Positions 5,464-44,853 of a stretch of 55,716 nucleotides of DNA are shown in pieces. Position numbers and translations under genes: made by a program. Within the stretch, counting starts at the first letter, position 1; every line of letters begins with the position of its first letter. Under the pieces are notes generated by a model that ran no database searches, was not told the origin of the DNA, and saw nothing but the letters and a program-made list of their open reading frames with translations. Source of the DNA: a virus; the IMG/VR virus record IMGVR_UViG_3300025127_000047, positions 1-55,716 of that record. One strand, 5' to 3'.

Positions 5464-5926
5464 TATTTGGATATATAGAATAGCATTTGGCTTACTTGTT
5501 TTATTTGGATTGCTTATATTAACTAATCCTTTATGGGCAGACCAAATAGTACACAAGTTTAAATCTCCTAGCTTTAGTGGCATTGGAACATCAAGTCATT
5601 ACCTTACAATAGAAAATCAACAATATACTAGAAAGCTTACAATTAAAGAAGAAATAAAAGCTTTGCAAGAAGAAATAGAAAGAGAAAAAGAAAATTCAAC
5701 TCTCGCAAGATTTTTGCGTAATTTAGAGTCTAGGGTATATGCAGAATTATCAAGACAACTTGTAAATAATCTTTTTGGCGAAACACCATCTGACTCTGGA
5801 ACTATAACATTAGAAGGAAACACCATTGAATATACAAGTGATGGTGTAACATTAACATTAAAAATAACGGAAGCCGATGGAACAGTTACTGAAATTACGA
5901 TACCTATTGGTACTTTTTTGTTCTAG
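5444..5926 (+). CDS. csgF: CsgF-like curli assembly protein
   Basis: A 160-aa exported protein. Residues about 11-32 form a signal sequence (IYRIAFGLLVLFGLLILTNPLWA) with probable cleavage after LWA. The mature start reads FKSPSFSGIGTSSHYL, matching the CsgF N-terminal pattern (FxNPxFGG) that inserts into the CsgG pore in E. coli. A helical part follows (about 60-105, with LESRVYAELSRQLVNNLFG), then a C-terminal beta part (EGNTIEYTSDGVTLTLKI..., ending VPIG-like). This order matches CsgF. In bacteria CsgF sits outside the outer membrane on CsgG and guides curlin nucleation. It overlaps csgG by 50 nt, which strengthens the call. Confidence 0.85.
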   Translation: MTKEKTNIWIYRIAFGLLVLFGLLILTNPLWADQIVHKFKSPSFSGIGTSSHYLTIENQQYTRKLTIKEEIKALQEEIEREKENSTLARFLRNLESRVYAELSRQLVNNLFGETPSDSGTITLEGNTIEYTSDGVTLTLKITEADGTVTEITIPIGTFLF

Positions 5927-6749
5927 CTGTTCTATATTTAATCAGATTGAAGATACTTATGAACATAGGTTTCAAAAACATAATGTAGTTAATATATCTG
6001 AATTACAATCACAAGAACTTGCTAATGTACCAAAACCAAAAATAAAACCAGTTGTAGCTGTATATCCTACAGCTTTTACAGACCAAACAGGTCAGCGTAA
6101 AAGTAATAGTGAGTTTGCTTTATTTAGCACAGCTATAACACAACAACCTAACGCATTACTTATACGAGCTTTAAAACACGCAGGTAATGGTGATTTTTTT
6201 ACAGTAGTTGAAAGAGTAGGTTTAGATAATTTAACAAAAGAAAGACAGTTAATAAGGTCAGCTAGAGAACAATCTGTATCAGATGAAGAAAAGAAAAAAC
6301 AATTAAGACCTTTATTATTTGCAGGAGTTTTAATCGAAGGTGCTGTTATTGCCTATGAAAGCAATCTTTCTACAGGAGGTGTTGGGGCTAGATATTTAGG
6401 TATTGGCTCTAGTATTCAATATAGAGAAGATAGCGTTACAGTAACCTTACGCATGGTATCAGTAGCCACAGGTGAAATACTTATAGAAGTAATGACTGAA
6501 AAAACTATATTTAGTTATGGTAAATCAGAAGATGTATTTCGTTTTATTGAAATGGGCACAGAGCTTGTTGAAATTGAATTGGGTAATTCAAGGAACGAGT
6601 CAACAACATTAGCACTTATGAAAGCTATAGAAAGTGCTGTGTTGGAAATAATTAATGTCGGATACGACAGGAGTTTTTGGAAATATGAAGAAAATAAAAT
6701 TAATAAGCCTGATTGTGATGATGAGTGCATTGCCAACATACGGGGCTGA
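5877..6749 (+). CDS. csgG: CsgG-like curli secretion channel
   Basis: A 290-aa homologue of CsgG, the nonameric outer-membrane lipoprotein pore that secretes curlin. A short signal sequence ends in a lipobox-like LFCSSC (lipidated Cys probably 18). Family landmarks in order are VAVYPTAFTDQTGQ (60-73), FSTAITQQPNALLIRALK (83-100), VVERVGLDNLTKERQLIR, LLFAGVLIEGAVIAYESN, GGVGARYLGIG (167-177), VTLRMVSVATGEIL, TIFSYG and VFRFIE, ending NVGYDRSFW. These track E. coli CsgG closely and at full length. At the constriction the eyelet Phe appears kept (F83), while the E. coli Asn beside it is Leu here. It overlaps csgF upstream and the curlin-like gene downstream. A phage-encoded CsgG is unusual. Confidence 0.93.
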   Translation: MEQLLKLRYLLVLFCSSCSIFNQIEDTYEHRFQKHNVVNISELQSQELANVPKPKIKPVVAVYPTAFTDQTGQRKSNSEFALFSTAITQQPNALLIRALKHAGNGDFFTVVERVGLDNLTKERQLIRSAREQSVSDEEKKKQLRPLLFAGVLIEGAVIAYESNLSTGGVGARYLGIGSSIQYREDSVTVTLRMVSVATGEILIEVMTEKTIFSYGKSEDVFRFIEMGTELVEIELGNSRNESTTLALMKAIESAVLEIINVGYDRSFWKYEENKINKPDCDDECIANIRG

Positions 6750-7416
6750 TAATGAAATTTATGTAGACCAATCTGGTACTGGTGCTAATATAGACCTAGA
6801 ACAACTAGGTATATCTAATATTATAGGAGGTTTAAATTCTACAGCAGGTAGTCTTAATCCTTTTGATTTAGATGGTAATAGTATGACACTAGATATTAAT
6901 ATGATTGGTGCAACTAATAAGTTTCTTGGTGATATATATGCTGATAACTTTACAGGATTTTATCAATTTACCGGTGGTACAAATTCTTTTACAATTCAAG
7001 TAGACCCTACAGATTCATACAGTTCAGATGGCTCTAATCAAAATGTAGCTGTTACTGGTAGCGGTAATACTTTTACATTAAATCAAGGAACATCAGCTAT
7101 AGCTGCATCACTAGATTTAGATTGGATAATACAAGGCTCTAATAACACAGTTACTTCAAATATAAATATTGATGGTGCAACTAACTATATGGATATAGAT
7201 GGTTCTGATAATACAGTTACTTATACAGGTACTGGAGTCAATGCATCAGCAGGTGGATATTTTTGGTTAGACCATACTGGAGGTTCAAGAACATTTAATA
7301 TTTCACAATTAAGTACCCAAGATAATGACTGGCTTAAAATCATATCCGTTTCTGGCACTTCTGCTTCTACTGTTTGCGTCATTCAAAACGACCAAGGTAC
7401 AAGCACAAGCTGCTAA
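6685..7416 (+). CDS. Secreted curlin-like repeat protein
   Basis: I start this at the ATG giving a clear signal peptide (MKKIKLISLIVMMSALPTYG, cleavage near YGA-D), which makes 243 aa; an ATG 30 nt upstream would hide it. The mature N-terminus has a curlin-type repeat, N-x5-Q-x-G-x2-N-x5-Q-x-G-x2-N (NEIYVDQSG, then IDLEQLGISN). Later segments show looser GSxNTxT turns typical of beta-solenoids, for example near residues 120-190. Two Cys lie near the C-terminus. Placed directly after csgG, it is the likely substrate of the pore. Bacterial CsgA/CsgB are shorter with five clean repeats, so this is a diverged relative at best. The gene overlaps csgG by 65 nt. Confidence 0.7.
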   Translation: MKKIKLISLIVMMSALPTYGADNEIYVDQSGTGANIDLEQLGISNIIGGLNSTAGSLNPFDLDGNSMTLDINMIGATNKFLGDIYADNFTGFYQFTGGTNSFTIQVDPTDSYSSDGSNQNVAVTGSGNTFTLNQGTSAIAASLDLDWIIQGSNNTVTSNINIDGATNYMDIDGSDNTVTYTGTGVNASAGGYFWLDHTGGSRTFNISQLSTQDNDWLKIISVSGTSASTVCVIQNDQGTSTSC

Positions 7417-8443
7417 TATTGGAGATATATCAGAACTTAATGGTGTAGCTCAAATAGTAAGAGATAAGCCTTATGAAGCTAATTTAAAATTTGCTATACA
7501 AAGTAATGATGAAGCTATTACTACGAATGGTAGAATGGCTATTACTTTTTTAGATGACTCTGTTGTAAAACTTACAGAACATTCACAATTATTAATTGAT
7601 GAATATATTTATGACCCAGACCCAAGTAAATCTAAAATGGCTATTACTTTTGGTTTGGGCACAGCTAGGTTTATAACTGGTAACTTAAACCGCATAGATA
7701 AACAAAACATATCTCTTAAAACACCTACAGCAAATATAGCTATTAGAGGTACAGATTTTACAGCTACAGTAGATGAATTAGGTCGTAGCCTTATAATACT
7801 TCTACCAGATGCTCTAGGGCTTTCTAGCGGTGAAATAGAAGTAGTTACTGCTATGGGTACTGTTGTATTAAATAAACCTTATGAAGCGACTACAGTAAGC
7901 GTATTTGAGTCTGCTCCAACTAAACCTGTAATATTAGATTTAACTTTAGATGTAATAGACAATATGCTTATTGTTACACCACCTAAAGAAGAAGTATTAG
8001 TAGAAGAAGAAAGTACATCAACTAAAACAGATAGTGTATTAGATTTTAATGATTTAGATATAGATTATTTAGCAGAAGATTTTTTTGCAGAAGATAATTT
8101 AGAATATACAGAACTTGATATAAATTATTTAGATGTAAATTATCTTGAAGATTTATTAAATGTTTTAGATGCTTTAGCTATTAAAGAAGATGAAGATGCT
8201 TTAGCTGAAGCTACAAGTACACAAATAACAGGAACACTATTAGGTAAAGACCCAGATACACAAATAACTACATTAATAACAGGTAATGTTATAAGTTTGC
8301 GTAGAAGTGTTAATGAGTCAGTAAGGTTAGATTTAGATGGAAGTAACGCTTATACAGTAATATTTATACAAGATGGTATATCAAATGTTGTAAAAATTAA
8401 TGGAGGAAGTGATAGCACTATTACTATTACTCAAAGTGATTGA
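7325..8443 (+). CDS. Secreted FecR-domain protein with C-terminal curlin-like repeat
   Basis: A 372-aa exported protein. The signal peptide is residues 1-27 (PFLALLLLLFASFKTTKVQA). Residues about 30-195 form a FecR domain: GVAQIVR, then DDSVVKLTEHSQLLIDEY, LGTARFITG, and KTPTANIAIRGTDF, the classic FecR core. A long acidic linker (about 225-290) follows. The C-terminus (about 330-372) shows IFIQDGISNVVKI and ITITQSD, a Q-x-G-x2-N spacing like curlin repeats. FecR domains in periplasmic proteins often sense or bind surface structures. FecR genes next to CHASE2 cyclases are, from memory, a recurring bacterial pair, and that pairing is seen here. Overlaps the curlin-like gene by 92 nt and the cyclase by 4 nt. 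Confidence 0.8.
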   Translation: MTGLKSYPFLALLLLLFASFKTTKVQAQAANIGDISELNGVAQIVRDKPYEANLKFAIQSNDEAITTNGRMAITFLDDSVVKLTEHSQLLIDEYIYDPDPSKSKMAITFGLGTARFITGNLNRIDKQNISLKTPTANIAIRGTDFTATVDELGRSLIILLPDALGLSSGEIEVVTAMGTVVLNKPYEATTVSVFESAPTKPVILDLTLDVIDNMLIVTPPKEEVLVEEESTSTKTDSVLDFNDLDIDYLAEDFFAEDNLEYTELDINYLDVNYLEDLLNVLDALAIKEDEDALAEATSTQITGTLLGKDPDTQITTLITGNVISLRRSVNESVRLDLDGSNAYTVIFIQDGISNVVKINGGSDSTITITQSD

Positions 8444-10200
8444 TGAAAAAATTAATAATACCAATACTTATAATATTAAGTTTGCCTATTTTATTTCAAT
8501 CAACTCCAACAGAAATAATAAAATTAAAAACATTTGATGCTTTAATAAAAACACCAGAGCCATCAGGTAATTTTGTGATACTTAATATTACAGAAGAAGA
8601 TGTAGAACAAGAGGGTGGTTATCCATTACCAAGACAAAGACTTGCTGAAATACAAATGGAGCTTATAAGCAAAGGAGCTTTAGGTGTAGGCTGGGTTATA
8701 TCATTTCCTCAACCAGATAGAATGGGTGGAGATGAAACTTTTGCAAGGTCTTTAGGATATGCACCATCTGTAATAGCTATGTTTGAAGATAATAAAGGTA
8801 GTTATCCAAAAGCAACAGGCACAGTTATACTTGGAAAAAATAATGGTGGTATAATTAGTTTGGGAGTGAAGGAAAACCTATCAACATTATCCTCTCACAC
8901 ACTACAAGGGTTAGCCATTGCTCCCACTGATGTAGACCAGCTTGTAAGAAGAATACCTCTTTTAGTTAAAACACCTGATAATGAATGGATACCTAGTTTT
9001 GGTACACAAATATATAAAGCTTTATTTAATGTAAAAACTTACATTATAAAAACTAATGATAATGGTATATCAGAAATATCAATAAGAGGAATACCACCAG
9101 TTAAAACAGATAGTCTTGGTCGCAAGTGGATTAGTTGGATAAATACAGAACAAACCACTTTAAAAGAAATGAATGTAAATGGTAAGTTTGTATTTGTAGG
9201 TGTAACAGCTAACGGAGTAATGCCACAAATAGCAACACCAGTTGGATTATTAGAGCCACATAAAATACAAACAGCATTAGCAGAAAGTATATTAATACAA
9301 GATAGTCCTTATATACCTGACTGGGCAATAAGTATTAACTTGTTAATATTTATATTAAGTGTTGTTATTGTTTGGTTTGTATTATTTTATTTTGGCATAA
9401 CATGGGGAATAGTATTAAGTTTATTATCTATGTTTACTACAGCTAGTATAGGTTATTACTTTATACAAAAAGGTTTATTAATTGATGTTACTTGGAGTTT
9501 AATATCTCAATTTGTAACAGGAGCTATAGCTTTTTATCTTAGATTTAGAGAGCAATATAAACTTAGACAACAAATTAAAAAACAATTTGAACATTACCTT
9601 GACCCAAGACAAGTTAAACAACTTCAAGATAATCCAGAATTACTTAAATTAGGTGGAGAAAGAAAGTATTGTACTTTTCTTTTTACAGATGTAAGAGGTT
9701 TTACTAGCTTGTCAGAAAAATTAGAACCAGAAGAAGTAACAGAAATTATGAATAAAGCTTTAACCATACAAGCTAATGCTGTTAAAAAATATGGTGGTAT
9801 GGTAGATAAGTATATTGGTGATGCAATGATGGCTATATTTAATGCACCTATAAATATAGATATGCATGAAGATAGAGCTATACTTACAGCTATAGAAATA
9901 AAAAAACAAATGCAAGAAGCTAATCTTAATATTAAAATAGGTATAGGTATAAATAGTGGAGATGCTGTTATTGGAAATATGGGCTCTGAAACTAGATTTG
10001 ATTATACAGCTATAGGAGATGCAGTAAATTTAGCAGCAAGAATGGAAAGCAGTTGTAAAGAAGTAGGAGAAGATATAGTAATAGCAAAAAATACTGCAAT
10101 ACAAACAGATATAAAATTAGAAAAATTAAAACCTATTAAAGTAAAAGGAAAAGAAAAAGCAATAGAAATTTATACTATACAAGGAAACGAACATGGATAG
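8440..10200 (+). CDS. CHASE2-domain membrane adenylate cyclase (class IIIb)
   Basis: A 586-aa cyclase. An N-terminal helix (about 3-20) precedes an extracytoplasmic CHASE2 sensor domain (about 25-280), then three membrane helices (about 287-365), then a cytoplasmic class III cyclase domain (about 400-580). Catalytic residues are visible: metal-binding D417 (FTDVRGF) and D461 (DKYIGD), purine-binding K457, and transition-state N530 and R534 (AVNLAAR). The second purine-binding position is T523 rather than Asp, the mark of subclass IIIb, whose members include bicarbonate-responsive enzymes. All key residues are present, so it should make cAMP. ATG overlaps the FecR-gene stop by 4 nt. A full-length sensor cyclase is very unusual in a phage. 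Confidence 0.92.
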   Translation: MMKKLIIPILIILSLPILFQSTPTEIIKLKTFDALIKTPEPSGNFVILNITEEDVEQEGGYPLPRQRLAEIQMELISKGALGVGWVISFPQPDRMGGDETFARSLGYAPSVIAMFEDNKGSYPKATGTVILGKNNGGIISLGVKENLSTLSSHTLQGLAIAPTDVDQLVRRIPLLVKTPDNEWIPSFGTQIYKALFNVKTYIIKTNDNGISEISIRGIPPVKTDSLGRKWISWINTEQTTLKEMNVNGKFVFVGVTANGVMPQIATPVGLLEPHKIQTALAESILIQDSPYIPDWAISINLLIFILSVVIVWFVLFYFGITWGIVLSLLSMFTTASIGYYFIQKGLLIDVTWSLISQFVTGAIAFYLRFREQYKLRQQIKKQFEHYLDPRQVKQLQDNPELLKLGGERKYCTFLFTDVRGFTSLSEKLEPEEVTEIMNKALTIQANAVKKYGGMVDKYIGDAMMAIFNAPINIDMHEDRAILTAIEIKKQMQEANLNIKIGIGINSGDAVIGNMGSETRFDYTAIGDAVNLAARMESSCKEVGEDIVIAKNTAIQTDIKLEKLKPIKVKGKEKAIEIYTIQGNEHG

Positions 10201-38128: not shown

Positions 38129-39325
38129 TTATTCAACATCAACAACCTCTCCAAATTTAAAGTATCTTGATGTTCCAGTAGTAGCCCATATAACAGGATA
38201 GTCAGGCTCACTAAAACTGTCCCAACAATATCCATCAGTGAGATAAACAAGAAAGGCAATGTCATTGTCTAGCTGTTTATCTATATACTTGAATACAGGC
38301 TCATAAGCAGTACCACCACCACAAATATAATCCAACTCAACTTCTTCGCCTTGCGAATAGGTATCATATTTTCTTATACAATCATCACAATAAAGAATTG
38401 TTAGTTCTTCAAAGTTAGCAACAGGGATAATGTTGTTAATCGCATCTTGCATGAAAGCCATATCTTCTTTTGACACACTCCCGCTAATATCAAGAGCAAT
38501 AACACCTTTAGGACTAGGTTTTTTCTCAATAGATGGTAAGTACATATCTTGATATACATATCTTCTATTTGGATTATTAAAGTTATAATCATCACTAGAA
38601 GTTTTATCTAGTATCAAATTGCCTAGCACTTCTTCCCAAGATACTGATTGATGTCTAACCATATCCATAATAGATTTAAAAGCATCTCCGCCTTTACCTA
38701 CGCTTTTGGATACTTGCGTTGCATCAATAACTTTTGCATTTATTTCTTCTTCTAACTTTTGTATTTGTTCTTCGTTAGATACGCCCTCAACTTCTTCAAT
38801 GACTGCATCAATAACTTCTCCAAACATCTTGTCAGCTAAAGATTGTCTATCATCATCTCCGCTATCAGATGTATCATCAGAAGTACTATCTCCGCCATCA
38901 GTGTTAGCATCTTGTTTATCATTTTCTTTATAGACTTCTTTATACACTTTCTCTGTGGTAGAGCCTTTGTATGAGTAGTCAATCAAGCCACCCTCAGGCA
39001 GTGTAAAGCCCTCATCTATTAGAATGTAATTGATTACATAGTCTCCCGCTACATTCCAGTAGAAAGCATCTCTGTCGTTCCTACGCAAATGATGTTTAAA
39101 GACAACATGAAGCACCTCATGGGCTATCACTCCAACTACCTCAAGAAAAGTAATTTTGTGTACAAAATCAGGGTTATAAAATATTCTCTGCCCATCAACC
39201 GCCATAGTGTCAAATTGTTTGCTTTCAACAAACTCTAAATCCATAGCAAGTTTTCCATAGAAAGGATTATTTTTTAACAAGTAAACCCTAGCCTTAGTCA
39301 TTATGTTTTTTGCTTTCTTATCCAT
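38129..39325 (-). CDS. VWA-like metallopeptidase-domain protein (DUF2201 type)
   Basis: A 398-aa protein. The N-terminal domain has VIAHEVLHVVFKHHLRR, an HEXXH zinc motif (H69, E70, H73). A disordered acidic linker (about 134-162, DTSDSGDDD) follows. The C-terminal domain is VWA-like: ALDISGSVS with the MIDAS DxSxS (D279, S281, S283), then CGGGTAYEP and YLTDGYC. This two-domain layout is typical of proteins paired with MoxR ATPases, as here. In such pairs the VWA protein is the effector that binds targets for remodelling. The stop/start base is shared with the next gene. Confidence 0.8.
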   Translation of the reverse strand: MDKKAKNIMTKARVYLLKNNPFYGKLAMDLEFVESKQFDTMAVDGQRIFYNPDFVHKITFLEVVGVIAHEVLHVVFKHHLRRNDRDAFYWNVAGDYVINYILIDEGFTLPEGGLIDYSYKGSTTEKVYKEVYKENDKQDANTDGGDSTSDDTSDSGDDDRQSLADKMFGEVIDAVIEEVEGVSNEEQIQKLEEEINAKVIDATQVSKSVGKGGDAFKSIMDMVRHQSVSWEEVLGNLILDKTSSDDYNFNNPNRRYVYQDMYLPSIEKKPSPKGVIALDISGSVSKEDMAFMQDAINNIIPVANFEELTILYCDDCIRKYDTYSQGEEVELDYICGGGTAYEPVFKYIDKQLDNDIAFLVYLTDGYCWDSFSEPDYPVIWATTGTSRYFKFGEVVDVE

Positions 39326-40206
39326 TAATCAAAGTACCCCACTTTTTTATCTAAATCAGAAACAATATCTTTAGCTGTATCAGATAATTCTTTTGCTAAT
39401 TCTTTATCATCTCTAACTTTATCTGCTGTTAAATCTCTGCTATAGAATGTATCCATAGCTTTTTGATGTACTGCTTGAATACTGGCATCTCCATTGATAT
39501 TCAATGCAGGAAGCACTTCGCAAAGTTCGATAAGCTTTTCAACAGTTTTATCTCTAAATGTTTCTCCGCTATCAATCTTATCTGCAAAGTGTTTGCACAC
39601 ACCTTTAACCTTATCAACAACCGCACCAGTTATCTTTTCAACCTTTGCATCTTCTTCTGCTTTGGCATTAGCTTTCAACTCTGCTATCTCATTAGCAGGT
39701 AAGTTCACTCTAATATCATCACTAGATGGGATAGGTTTCTTGTAAATACTACATTCAAATAAACCCTCTATCTCATCTCTATCAGGGAAGTCAGAAAGAT
39801 TAAATGCAGTACCCAAATCAGTCTTAGCTTCTGCAACAATACTGTCATATTGTTTTACAAAATCTTTTACTAATTTTTCTCTGTCATTTTGATAACCAGT
39901 AAAATCTTTTTCAAACCTATCTTTTAATTCAATAGGTAATAAATAAGTTCCTTGATTATCCCATGCCAAACAATAACCGCTATAACCTGCACCGCTATAG
40001 ATAACATCAGTTCTTATCTTGCCATCAATCTTTTTGATTTCTTTCAAGATAGGACTGTTAGTAAGCTTTTTGTTTACAGTCAGTCTTGTCTCATCAATAG
40101 AATGATTATCAGCTAATTCATCTCTCAATGATTTATCAGTTTTAACACCACTCCACTTTTTTAAATTAAGTTCAATGAGTAATGCTTTATCTCTTAATTG
40201 AGCCAT
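39325..40206 (-). CDS. DUF3150-like helical protein, third member of MoxR-VWA module
   Basis: A 293-aa, mostly helical protein with charged coiled segments (about 175-290). It includes YSGAGYSGYCLAWDNQGTYL and ITGAVVDKVKGVCKHFADKI. Genes of the DUF3150 type sit between MoxR and VWA genes in some phages and plasmids, from memory, but the match here rests mostly on context. It directly abuts the VWA gene. Probably a substrate adaptor or structural partner. Confidence 0.5.
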   Translation of the reverse strand: MAQLRDKALLIELNLKKWSGVKTDKSLRDELADNHSIDETRLTVNKKLTNSPILKEIKKIDGKIRTDVIYSGAGYSGYCLAWDNQGTYLLPIELKDRFEKDFTGYQNDREKLVKDFVKQYDSIVAEAKTDLGTAFNLSDFPDRDEIEGLFECSIYKKPIPSSDDIRVNLPANEIAELKANAKAEEDAKVEKITGAVVDKVKGVCKHFADKIDSGETFRDKTVEKLIELCEVLPALNINGDASIQAVHQKAMDTFYSRDLTADKVRDDKELAKELSDTAKDIVSDLDKKVGYFD

Positions 40207-40220
40207 AAGTTCTCCTTAAA

Positions 40221-40236
40221 TATTAATTGGTTAATA
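40221..40236. promoter_or_regulatory. TATTAA-N4-TTAATA palindrome (copy 6)
   Basis: Spacer TTGG, followed by GATAAGG. It sits between the MoxR gene and the DUF3150-like gene, just before the AAGGAG ribosome site of the latter. Confidence 0.6.
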
Positions 40237-40241
40237 GATAA

Positions 40242-40257
40242 GGGGCTGTTAAGCCCC
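40242..40257 (-). terminator. GC hairpin spanning the MoxR stop codon
   Basis: GGGGCT-GTTA-AGCCCC, a 6-bp GC-rich stem including the TAA of the MoxR gene. No clean T-run follows on the minus strand, so it may be a weak terminator or an RNA-processing/stability hairpin rather than a full stop. Confidence 0.4.
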
Positions 40258-41250
40258 AATATCTTGATATTCAATTTCGTAGTCAATGTACGCTTTTGTT
40301 TTCTTCAAGCCCTCATCTCTAGCAGTAGCCATAGTCATAGCCATAACTAAAAATTCATCTTGAATTTCTTCAGTATCTTTCAAGAAATCATAGTACTTTT
40401 GGATATTGTTCTTGTTCATGTTTTTAGCTAGAACACCAACAATCAGATAAATCACATCAGATTGAAGTTCAATATCTTCAAGCACACTTTCAGGATTTTT
40501 GACTAAGTTATCAACATCAGGTAAGTTTCTGAATCTTCTCACAAATGCTGTAAACTCTGCGGAAATACCCTCTCCAATAGCACCTGCATAAAGTTCTTGC
40601 TCTATGTCGCTATCAGGGTCAGTAGCAAGTAAATTACTTGTATATTCCCATGCTCTAGGCGTTGCATTGACTGAAGCATTTTTATCAAAATGATATAAAT
40701 AATCTTCGCCTTGCCATGAAATAAAAGACAACACTTCTTGTCTTATTCTTCCAGTTTTACCGCCCCACTCAATCCACTCATCATGGCATACATCTAAGTT
40801 CAAATGAACAAATCTGTCTCCAAGAGCAGTATTGACTCTATTTGCACCTGCTTTGTCTTGCACTCTATTACCCGCACTTACAATCACAGTATCTTCAGGC
40901 AATGTGTATTCGCCAAGCTTTCTATCCTTAATCAACTGAAACAATGCGTTTTGCACAGATGGACTGCCTTGCGGAAGTTCATCAAGAAACAACAATGTTT
41001 TAGGCTGTTCATTACTAGGTAAAAATACAGGCGGATTAAAAACAGTTCTTCCATCTTTAACACTAGGTACACCTCTAAGGTCAACAGGGTCAAGTAAGGC
41101 AACCCTTACATCTTCAACCCTGTATCCCAAGTTTTCAGCTACTTTGTGGACAATCTCTGATTTACCCACTCCAACTCCACCCCATATAAAACAGGGCTGT
41201 TTGATAGAGATTAATTTCTCTATCGTTTTTTCTAATTGCTTTGCTTTCAT
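40249..41250 (-). CDS. MoxR-like AAA+ ATPase
   Basis: A 333-aa ATPase. I start at the ATG 41250 with the AGGAGTAAAT leader; an upstream in-frame ATG lacks one. Walker A is GGVGVGKSE at 24-32 (K30), Walker B is LLFLDELPQ (D90, E91), followed by sensor 1 VIVSAGNRVQD. Also seen are DLRGVPS and FQLIKDRKLGEYTLP (pore/pre-sensor loop). MoxR ATPases act with VWA partners as remodelling chaperones, and the VWA and helical partner genes follow directly. It may load or mature a phage complex or disable a host one. Confidence 0.85.
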   Translation of the reverse strand: MKAKQLEKTIEKLISIKQPCFIWGGVGVGKSEIVHKVAENLGYRVEDVRVALLDPVDLRGVPSVKDGRTVFNPPVFLPSNEQPKTLLFLDELPQGSPSVQNALFQLIKDRKLGEYTLPEDTVIVSAGNRVQDKAGANRVNTALGDRFVHLNLDVCHDEWIEWGGKTGRIRQEVLSFISWQGEDYLYHFDKNASVNATPRAWEYTSNLLATDPDSDIEQELYAGAIGEGISAEFTAFVRRFRNLPDVDNLVKNPESVLEDIELQSDVIYLIVGVLAKNMNKNNIQKYYDFLKDTEEIQDEFLVMAMTMATARDEGLKKTKAYIDYEIEYQDIGA

Positions 41251-42909: not shown

Positions 42910-43173
42910 TTAAGAAATCCATTTTTGTAAGTTTGGATTATCTTCGCCTTTCATTCCATGATGTTCACAATATAATTTCATTGCACTGTCAATTCTTCTG
43001 TCAACACTACGTTTCAGTTCTTCTCTACTCCAAAAGTGCATTTTCATAGCACCATTCAGCCCCATGTATGAAACACTTTTTACATTACCATTGAATGTTG
43101 TGTCTCTATGCACATTGAAATAAAACCCTCTGTAATTCACAACAAAATCGTTTACTTTAGTTATTTTATTCAT
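42910..43173 (-). CDS. Hypothetical protein, first gene of leftward operon
   Basis: An 87-aa protein from the Met at 43173 (MNKITKVNDFVVNYRGFYFN). The AGGAGTAAATATG leader favours this start over an upstream in-frame Met. It has SYMGLNGAMKMHFWSREELK and a CEHHGMKGEDNPNL tail with possible metal ligands. Function unknown. Confidence 0.6.
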   Translation of the reverse strand: MNKITKVNDFVVNYRGFYFNVHRDTTFNGNVKSVSYMGLNGAMKMHFWSREELKRSVDRRIDSAMKLYCEHHGMKGEDNPNLQKWIS

Positions 43174-43251
43174 ATTTACTCCTAAATAAATTATGTTTCT
43201 TGTACCCTTGCGGATACTCATTCAGCTTGTTAATTCAAGGACATAATCAAA

Positions 43252-43267
43252 TATTAAATCGTTAATA
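43252..43267. promoter_or_regulatory. TATTAA-N4-TTAATA palindrome (copy 7)
   Basis: Spacer ATCG, followed by CATAAG. It lies in the long non-coding block, close to the first gene of the leftward operon. Confidence 0.6.
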
Positions 43268-43273
43268 CATAAG

Positions 43274-43760
43274 AAAAAAAACTCACAACAGCATGGGATT
43301 TTCTGACTACACACAACACCTATTAGCCCCTAGAGATAGACTTTGCTACACCATCAGAATTAGCACTTTTACTGCTACGCCCTGTTCCATGTTCTGTGGG
43401 AACTAAAGCCAACTTTAAAAACTCCATCAAGGGTAGAGTCGCCACACTCTCCGCAAGACAGGTATTGAGCCATCAATAGCAACACTGTCAGGACACTGGG
43501 TAAACGCACAAACTTTTGAAAAGCGGATTTTTCGTGATAGGGATTCCCAGTTTACCCTGTTCTGTTTGCTTCCTTGATACCTTGCATTGCTCTAGGCAAC
43601 CCAAATCGTTAGTCTTTATTGCAAAGCCCAACTTCAAGGAAACTAGATGTCTCACTATGGGTGTTTTGGAAAGGGGAGTTAGCTACTGTTTCTTCGCTTT
43701 TTTGGGTCTCATCAATCCCTCAACGAAACGAACTATAGTTTATTGTGGGGTATCGTGTCA
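43274..43760 (-). ncRNA. Candidate structured non-coding RNA (orientation uncertain)
   Basis: This part of a 724-nt gap between divergent operons is about 40-53% GC per 60-nt line, clearly above nearby genes. No ORF is convincing. Visible pairings on the plus-strand numbering: TAGCA/TGCTA (43361-43377), GTTCC/GGAAC (43384-43403), GG-AGAGT/ACTCT-CC (43432-43452), ACTGGG/CCCAGT (43495-43551) with a GAAAA/TTTTC hairpin inside, and an 8-bp TTCCTTGA/TCAAGGAA (43570-43641). GGGTAAAC/GTTTACCC can pair instead of ACTGGG/CCCAGT, giving a switch-like choice. A T8 run on the minus strand at 43274-43281 favours leftward transcription. I could not match tmRNA, RNase P or intron consensus. It might instead be an origin or packaging region. 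Confidence 0.45.
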
Positions 43761-43787
43761 AGAAAAAAGTGTAATTATTTTCTACAA

Positions 43788-43859
43788 ATGTTCGTGAACA
43801 TATTTGTTGTTGCTTACGAAGTAAGCGTATAATAGACCTACAGTGATAGTAAGCACTAT
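43788..43859 (+). promoter_or_regulatory. Main rightward promoter with stacked operator-like palindromes
   Basis: A sigma70-like promoter: TTGTTG (43804-43809), 18-nt spacer, TATAAT (43828-43833). The spacer contains GCTTAC-GAA-GTAAGC. Upstream lies ATGTTC-GT-GAACAT (43788-43801). Downstream lies GATAGT-AAGC-ACTATC (43844-43859). Three palindromes around one promoter suggest tight repression of the packaging operon. Confidence 0.7.
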
Positions 43860-43874
43860 CAAAATAATTTTAAA

Positions 43875-43890
43875 TATTAAGGAATTAATA
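43875..43890. promoter_or_regulatory. TATTAA-N4-TTAATA palindrome (copy 8)
   Basis: Spacer GGAA, followed by GATAG. It lies 7 nt before the small-terminase ATG and includes the AAGGA ribosome site. Confidence 0.6.
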
Positions 43891-43897
43891 GATAGAT

Positions 43898-44368
43898 ATG
43901 AGCAATAAAGACAGTAATAACAAGGACAATATAACTAACATATCAGGGCTTACTCCAAAGCAAGAGAAGTTCGTTCAAGGTGTCTTATCAGGTATGACAG
44001 CAAGTGAGTCATATCGCAACGCATATAGCACAGAGAACATGAAAGATAGTAGCGTATGGACAGAAGCTTCAAAGCTTATGAGTAGCCCTAAGGTATCCCA
44101 AAGGGTAAAGCAGGGATTGAAGCGAAAGAATGAGTATGCTTCCACTACAGGGCTCTCCCTTAGACAGATGGTACTGGAACAGCTACAAAAGGAAGCACTG
44201 GATACAAATAACAATGAATCATCAAGAATAAGGGCTTTGGAACTACTAGGCAAAGTATCAGAGGTGGCATTATTCACAGAGAGATTAGAAACAACTACAA
44301 GCAATCAATCATCAGATGAGATAAGACTGGAACTAGAACAGAAGATACAGTCAATGTTTAATAAGTAA
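43898..44368 (+). CDS. Terminase small subunit
   Basis: A 156-aa protein. The helix-turn-helix region reads LTPKQEKFVQGVLSGMTASE, then SYRNAYSTENM and EASKLMSSPKVSQRV, a typical phage small terminase start. The C-terminal half is helical and acidic, ending QKIQSMFNK. It recognises the packaging site and feeds DNA to the large subunit. It stands first after the strong promoter at 43828, about 0.7 kb ahead of the large subunit gene. Confidence 0.85.
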   Translation: MSNKDSNNKDNITNISGLTPKQEKFVQGVLSGMTASESYRNAYSTENMKDSSVWTEASKLMSSPKVSQRVKQGLKRKNEYASTTGLSLRQMVLEQLQKEALDTNNNESSRIRALELLGKVSEVALFTERLETTTSNQSSDEIRLELEQKIQSMFNK

Positions 44369-44534: not shown

Positions 44535-44567
44535 TTGCGTTTTTATAGGAATGTTCGTATAATGTTC
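44535..44567 (+). promoter_or_regulatory. Promoter overlapped by LexA-type box GTTC-N7-GTTC
   Basis: TTGCGT (44535-44540), 17-nt spacer, TATAAT (44558-44563). GTTC-N7-GTTC spans 44553-44567, and the -10 box lies inside its N7. This box form is the SOS operator of alphaproteobacteria. It would repress the next gene while LexA or a LexA-like protein is bound. Confidence 0.65.
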
Positions 44568-44598: not shown

Positions 44599-44853
44599 AT
44601 GACAAGTAAACAATTAAAACTTTTAGAAACCATAGAAGAATACTGGGACGAGTTTGGTTGCGGTCCTAGTCTTGATGCTTTAGCTGACGCTTTAGGTTTA
44701 TCCTCTAAGAGCACCATACACGCTATGCTACATAGATTAAAAGATGGTGGCTGGGTTACTATGCAACCTAATAGATGGCGTACAGTGATGAGCACTAGAA
44801 ACAGTCCATTTAAAAAAGTTGAAAAAACTATTGACGAATCTGTGAAGGTATGA
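44599..44853 (+). CDS. LexA-like DNA-binding-domain protein (no peptidase domain)
   Basis: An 84-aa protein that matches the LexA N-terminal winged helix: TSKQLKLLETIEEYWDEFGC, then GPSLDALADALGLSSKSTIH and RLKDGGWVTMQPNRWR. The recognition helix region (LSSKSTIHAML) lines up with LexA's. The S24 autoprotease domain is absent, so RecA cannot trigger its self-cleavage. It may act as a non-inducible LexA mimic. A LexA-type box lies over its own promoter, suggesting autoregulation or control by host LexA. It precedes the large terminase. Confidence 0.75.
   Translation: MTSKQLKLLETIEEYWDEFGCGPSLDALADALGLSSKSTIHAMLHRLKDGGWVTMQPNRWRTVMSTRNSPFKKVEKTIDESVKV

Follow-up and report, generated by a model that had tools for sequence, protein, structure and literature searches.

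What does the marine phage contig analysed here (the window, the whole stretch of 55,716 nt) encode at positions 43274-43760, between a leftward operon whose first gene runs from about 43158 to 42910 on the minus strand and a rightward terminase operon with TerS at 43898-44368 (+)? An earlier note, made from the letters alone, had described a GC-raised block without a credible open reading frame between divergent operons and had proposed a novel structured RNA. The description holds in each respect: the GC content of the region is 42.9% compared with 33.4% for the whole window, and only 0.7% of windows of its size are as GC-rich; it is flanked by the two operons just named; and no open reading frame on either strand is conserved across relatives. 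ARAGORN found no tRNA or tmRNA in the 55.7-kb window.

Several neighbouring features were recorded in their own right. Two palindromes, GTTCGTGAAC and GCTTACGAAGTAAGC, lie at 43790-43833 (+), the latter directly preceding a TATAAT, and they are likely an operator over the rightward terminase promoter; a related locus (L016) has a different sequence, GCTGCTGTAAGCAGC, at this place. A GTTCN7GTTC motif, the LexA-box pattern of alphaproteobacteria, is found at 44553-44567 (+), shortly before a gene (44599-44853, +) whose product has a LexA-type DNA-binding domain. Elsewhere in the window, a gene at 8440-10200 (+) encodes a protein that joins a CHASE2 sensor domain to an adenylate/guanylate cyclase catalytic domain; its neighbours are genes for a FecR protein (7325-8443) and a CsgG protein (5877-6749). 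The stretch 38129-41247 (-) encodes a MoxR/CobS-like ATPase and a companion that PHROGs labels HNH endonuclease; cobS and cobT have been reported in HTVC023P-type pelagiphages (PMC9599517).

To collect homologues, relatives were fetched by TerS and TerL searches of IMG/VR and a nucleotide profile of the region was then run. Twenty distinct IMG/VR sequences carry the element; they form four groups with TerL proteins 86-100% identical, and groups 1 and 2 share about 66-68% nucleotide identity. Profile matches were found at loci whose DNA extends this far upstream, always adjoining the terminase genes and always leftward, and nowhere beyond, and the element is single copy in each of the seven longer records searched. 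At the sensitivity used, neither the phage records nor the bacterial and archaeal genomes scanned gave a match to the region. Pattern matches at four loci (L052-L055) had no profile match and were set aside as chance. The nearest named relatives of the window are phage 023Pt_psg01 and the Pelagibacter phages HTVC027P and HTVC023P, with TerL 53-57% and portal 41-42% identical; a covariance search of other loci, including a sister clade and the HTVC relatives, added no further member.

Comparison of the homologues demonstrates that the region encodes a conserved, strand-specific RNA structure with compensatory changes beyond both chance and shifted controls; across the related viruses it is the shape that is kept and not the sequence. 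Specifically, a core of 185 nt was aligned with MAFFT without structural information (alignment A3), and 41 pairs in eight helices were named on it. These pairs are 92.1% paired, and 29 of the 41 show changes on both sides. Double-change cells number 127 compared with 38 +/- 6 after shuffling of partners and at most 32 when the structure was slid by 1-3 columns; cells overcount events because the groups are related, and the slid control retains this relatedness. The covariation score is 0.557 versus 0.246 +/- 0.014 for shuffled and no more than 0.149 for slid versions, and the consensus fold of the core has z = -8.8 relative to column shuffles. Naming the structure by eye on these same sequences gives it an advantage over slid versions in cells paired; the two-sided changes carry more weight. 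Folding of single sequences gave nothing significant on either strand (z of -0.85, +0.32 and +0.65). The earlier note's hairpins and long-range stems therefore exceed chance by covariation and not by single-sequence stability against shuffled controls; with single-sequence z values about 0, hairpins alone would not count as evidence and covariation, one of the checks that the note had suggested, is decisive.

The earlier note named no strand; the RNA lies on the minus strand and ends at about 43274. Read on the minus strand, the non-Watson-Crick positions of the core comprise 86 G-U and 9 A-C; because an RNA from the plus strand would give the opposite ratio, this identifies the minus strand as the RNA strand, in agreement with the lower RNAalifold energy for minus than for plus. 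Upstream on this strand lies a sigma70-type promoter (43732..43761) with TTGACA at 43761-43756, an 18-nt spacer and TATAGT at 43737-43732, matching 11 of 12 consensus positions. It is the only promoter-like site within 43100-44000, and hexamers resembling the -35 and -10 elements recur in the homologues, where the spacer sequence between them drifts. From this promoter and the structure we infer the transcription and the ends of the RNA: the 5' end would lie at about 43724, as judged from the -10 element, and the 3' end would be a run of eight U at 43281-43274, giving an RNA of ~450 nt (about 451; 43274..43724, minus). The U-run is present in groups 1 and 3 and absent from groups 2 and 4, and no canonical terminator hairpin was found at it. 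The next gene has its start codon 22-139 nt past the RNA, and in most members of groups 2 and 4 a ribosome-binding site lies ~20-50 nt past it.

The clearest structural element is a pseudoknot formed by ACUGGG (43551-43546) and CCCAGU (43500-43495), which is 100% paired in 18 distinct sequences with all six pairs double-changing; besides ACUGGG/CCCAGU, the versions ACUGGA/UCCAGU, ACUAGG/CCUAGU, ACAGAA/UUCUGU, CCUGAA/UUCAGG, CUUGAA/UUCAAG and CCAAGA/UCUUGG occur. It is fed by the loop of hairpin H1 (43555-43558 with 43539-43542; 100% paired, three of four pairs double-changing). On its 5' side, helix A (43637-43640 with 43571-43574, extending inward; 93% paired, three of four pairs double-changing) closes a domain that holds two hairpins. 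Hairpin B, with loop GCAAY (43628-43632/43608-43612 and 43622-43625/43615-43618), is 84% paired with six two-sided pairs, its register being shifted by one nucleotide in group 1, and the 9-bp hairpin E, with loop CUAGA (43596-43604 with 43582-43590), is 95% paired with six double-changing pairs. Between the two strands of the pseudoknot, a nested stem-loop comprises H2 (43532-43536/43507-43511) and H3 (43520-43523/43513-43516), assessed by the covariation test and invariant columns; this region (43507..43536) contains the near-invariant AAAAUCCG and GCGUUUA. The long-range helices G (43489-43494/43379-43384) and M (43481-43485/43389-43393) are kept in all 11 sequences, with replacements of U-A by C-G and of G-C by C-G. 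Helix F (43353-43359 with 43301-43307) occurs in six sequence versions with 124 of 126 cells paired compared with 84 after shuffling, and helix K (43371-43375 with 43288-43292), two pairs of which are replaced on both sides, pairs the 3' end. A terminal helix P0, GGGAUU (43719-43714) with AAUCCC (43300-43295), is tentative: most groups can form it and L003 and L005 do not. All of these helices are on the minus strand.

The pseudoknot bears directly on a proposed switch between two mutually exclusive pairings that share an arm. Both pairings exist in the window (ACTGGG at 43495-43500 with CCCAGT at 43546-43551, and GGGTAAAC with GTTTACCC), but they are not equally conserved. The rival pairing, GGGUAAAC/GUUUACCC, breaks in 6-9 of the 18 distinct sequences (L003-L005 and group 3) and has one two-sided pair, and ACUGGG/CCCAGU is kept in 18 of 18 with compensation in all six pairs. 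The arrangement is therefore better read as one fixed pseudoknot than as a switch. A dimer contact through a palindromic CUAG loop was also considered and dropped, the loop not being palindromic in group 3; intramolecular pairing of the CUAG loop with UCUAG near the 3' end is a candidate that fits all groups by eye.

Around this core, peripheral arms are gained and lost. Of the five group 2 members in alignment A4, four carry a 24-nt extra arm at columns 131-154 (seen in L008 and L010) and L044 does not; in group 3 a different arm is missing and a separate insert is present. The first downstream gene comes from about seven unrelated families across the relatives, even close ones, and thus the RNA is not tied to one gene. 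As for function, we lean towards a large non-coding RNA with a phage gene of its own, separated from the message and acting as RNA itself. In our working hypothesis, host RNA polymerase would start at the promoter at 43761-43732 and transcribe leftward, and the first ~450 nt would fold into the multi-helix RNA with the pseudoknotted core, a fold established by covariation. Most likely the RNA would be released from the downstream message, either through termination at the U-run in the groups that have one or through a cut between its end and the next ribosome-binding site, and it may then act alone as a scaffold or a host-interacting RNA, on the model of other large phage RNAs. The variety of first downstream genes, the U-run of groups 1 and 3, the variable arms around a constant core and the single copy argue for such a stand-alone role. 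In groups 2 and 4, which lack the U-run and in most members have a ribosome-binding site nearby, transcription probably runs on past the RNA into the leftward operon, in a leader-like manner.

This read-through brings in the main rival, a cis-acting leader of the leftward operon in which the RNA either modifies the polymerase (processive antitermination, like the put RNA of phage HK022) or controls the operon as a whole; we regard it as possible and favour the stand-alone RNA. In its favour, transcription of the long leftward operon begins with this RNA, a convincing second promoter ahead of the first leftward gene is lacking, read-through is likely in two of the groups, and control of the whole operon accords with the RNA not depending on which gene comes first. 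Against it, terminator-like sites are not enriched in the leftward operon (7 versus 6.0 expected, both strands), the U-run is present in two groups, and the antiterminator RNAs known to us are far smaller than the ~450-nt RNA. A riboswitch or another gene-specific 5'-UTR regulator would likewise lie upstream of a ribosome-binding site, as this RNA does, but is highly improbable given that the downstream genes are unrelated between close relatives, that no conserved switch architecture is seen and that the alternative pairing is unsupported.

Two further readings dispense with an RNA. The region adjoins TerS and could in principle be a packaging or replication site beside the terminase genes, with DNA palindromes mimicking RNA helices. 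The strong asymmetry of G-U over A-C between strands, which is expected of RNA only, together with the pseudoknot and the long-range helices and with a promoter and transcription pointing away from terS, makes this very unlikely. To a decayed or overlooked protein gene we assign almost no weight: a 93-aa frame on the plus strand opens with TTG in the window, but it is open in some close relatives and closed in others, and conservation tracks base pairs.

In sister phages (TerL ~79% identical), the RNA of the window is absent by profile and covariance search, and another GC-raised block, promoter-led and ~560 nt long, occupies the same place in the same direction. It encodes an unrelated structured RNA on the minus strand (L116:3514-4246; also L103, L112, L108, L120, L111, L096 and L110), with RNAalifold energies of -143.7 for minus versus -100.2 for plus, 205 G-U and 27 A-C, and 29 two-sided pairs, a count that leans towards the structure because it was made on the predicted one. 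This RNA ends in a ~16-bp hairpin just before a ribosome-binding site and has no Rfam match. In HTVC027P, Rfam's Flavobacterium-1 RNA scores 90.2 bits at L035:2283-2403 (-), in a divergent intergenic region that precedes the TerL gene cluster. It is conceivable, and we put it forward tentatively as a plausible idea, that the lineage as a whole keeps an intergenic slot for a large structured RNA where its leftward operon begins, and that unrelated ones occupy it: the ~450-nt RNA, the ~560-nt RNA and possibly the Flavobacterium-1 RNA of HTVC027P. If so, a function shared by abundant marine phages would be served by several non-homologous RNAs. Pelagibacter phages number among the sea's most abundant viruses, and the ~450-nt RNA adds, in their relatives, a compact pseudoknotted core supported by covariation. 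Two RNAs in one slot also pose a testable question, namely why a big RNA stands at the start of the leftward operon.

How does the ~450-nt RNA compare with known RNAs? The earlier note had recognised no RNA class; consistently, with Rfam 15 neither the window nor any of eight related loci yielded a match at gathering score, and a search of three members at relaxed E-value returned only weak, unrelated matches below gathering score. The literature searched, which left many subscription papers outside it, contained no description of the RNA. Together with the strong covariation and the lack of a protein gene, the points on which the note had said its proposal could fail, this supports a novel structured RNA. 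OLE RNA is also a long structured bacterial RNA and, like GOLLD and ROOL, one that assembles into RNA-only homo-oligomers; unlike it, the present RNA has a phage context and no Rfam match. Flavobacterium-1 RNA (RF02976) is similar in lying in a comparable divergent intergenic region of HTVC027P, also leftward, but its model is 121 nt long and does not match the RNA of the window. The HK022 put antiterminator RNA, of a type that lets polymerase pass downstream terminators in cis, likewise heads a phage operon as a leader, whichever gene follows; it is much smaller than the ~450-nt RNA, and its sequence and activity are not comparable here. The pRNA of phi29 is a phage structured RNA encoded near packaging genes, whereas here a TerS/TerL pair is encoded, the RNA is transcribed away from terS and Rfam gives no match. 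We file the RNA as a new family of the same general kind as GOLLD and ROOL. Few large structured RNAs of phages are known, and these two, the best studied, are likewise elaborately folded non-coding RNAs with pseudoknots and are still without a known function (PMC12286853). The parallel drawn with them in the earlier note is no more than an analogy. Neither model matched: GOLLD was absent at gathering score from the window and the eight related loci, and at E<=5 from the three members, and the ROOL covariance model was unmatched in the same searches. GOLLD and ROOL are also larger, at ~660 and often >800 nt versus ~450 nt here, and often lie near tRNA genes or islands, whereas the RNA described here lies in a window with no tRNA, at the head of a leftward operon beside the terminase genes.
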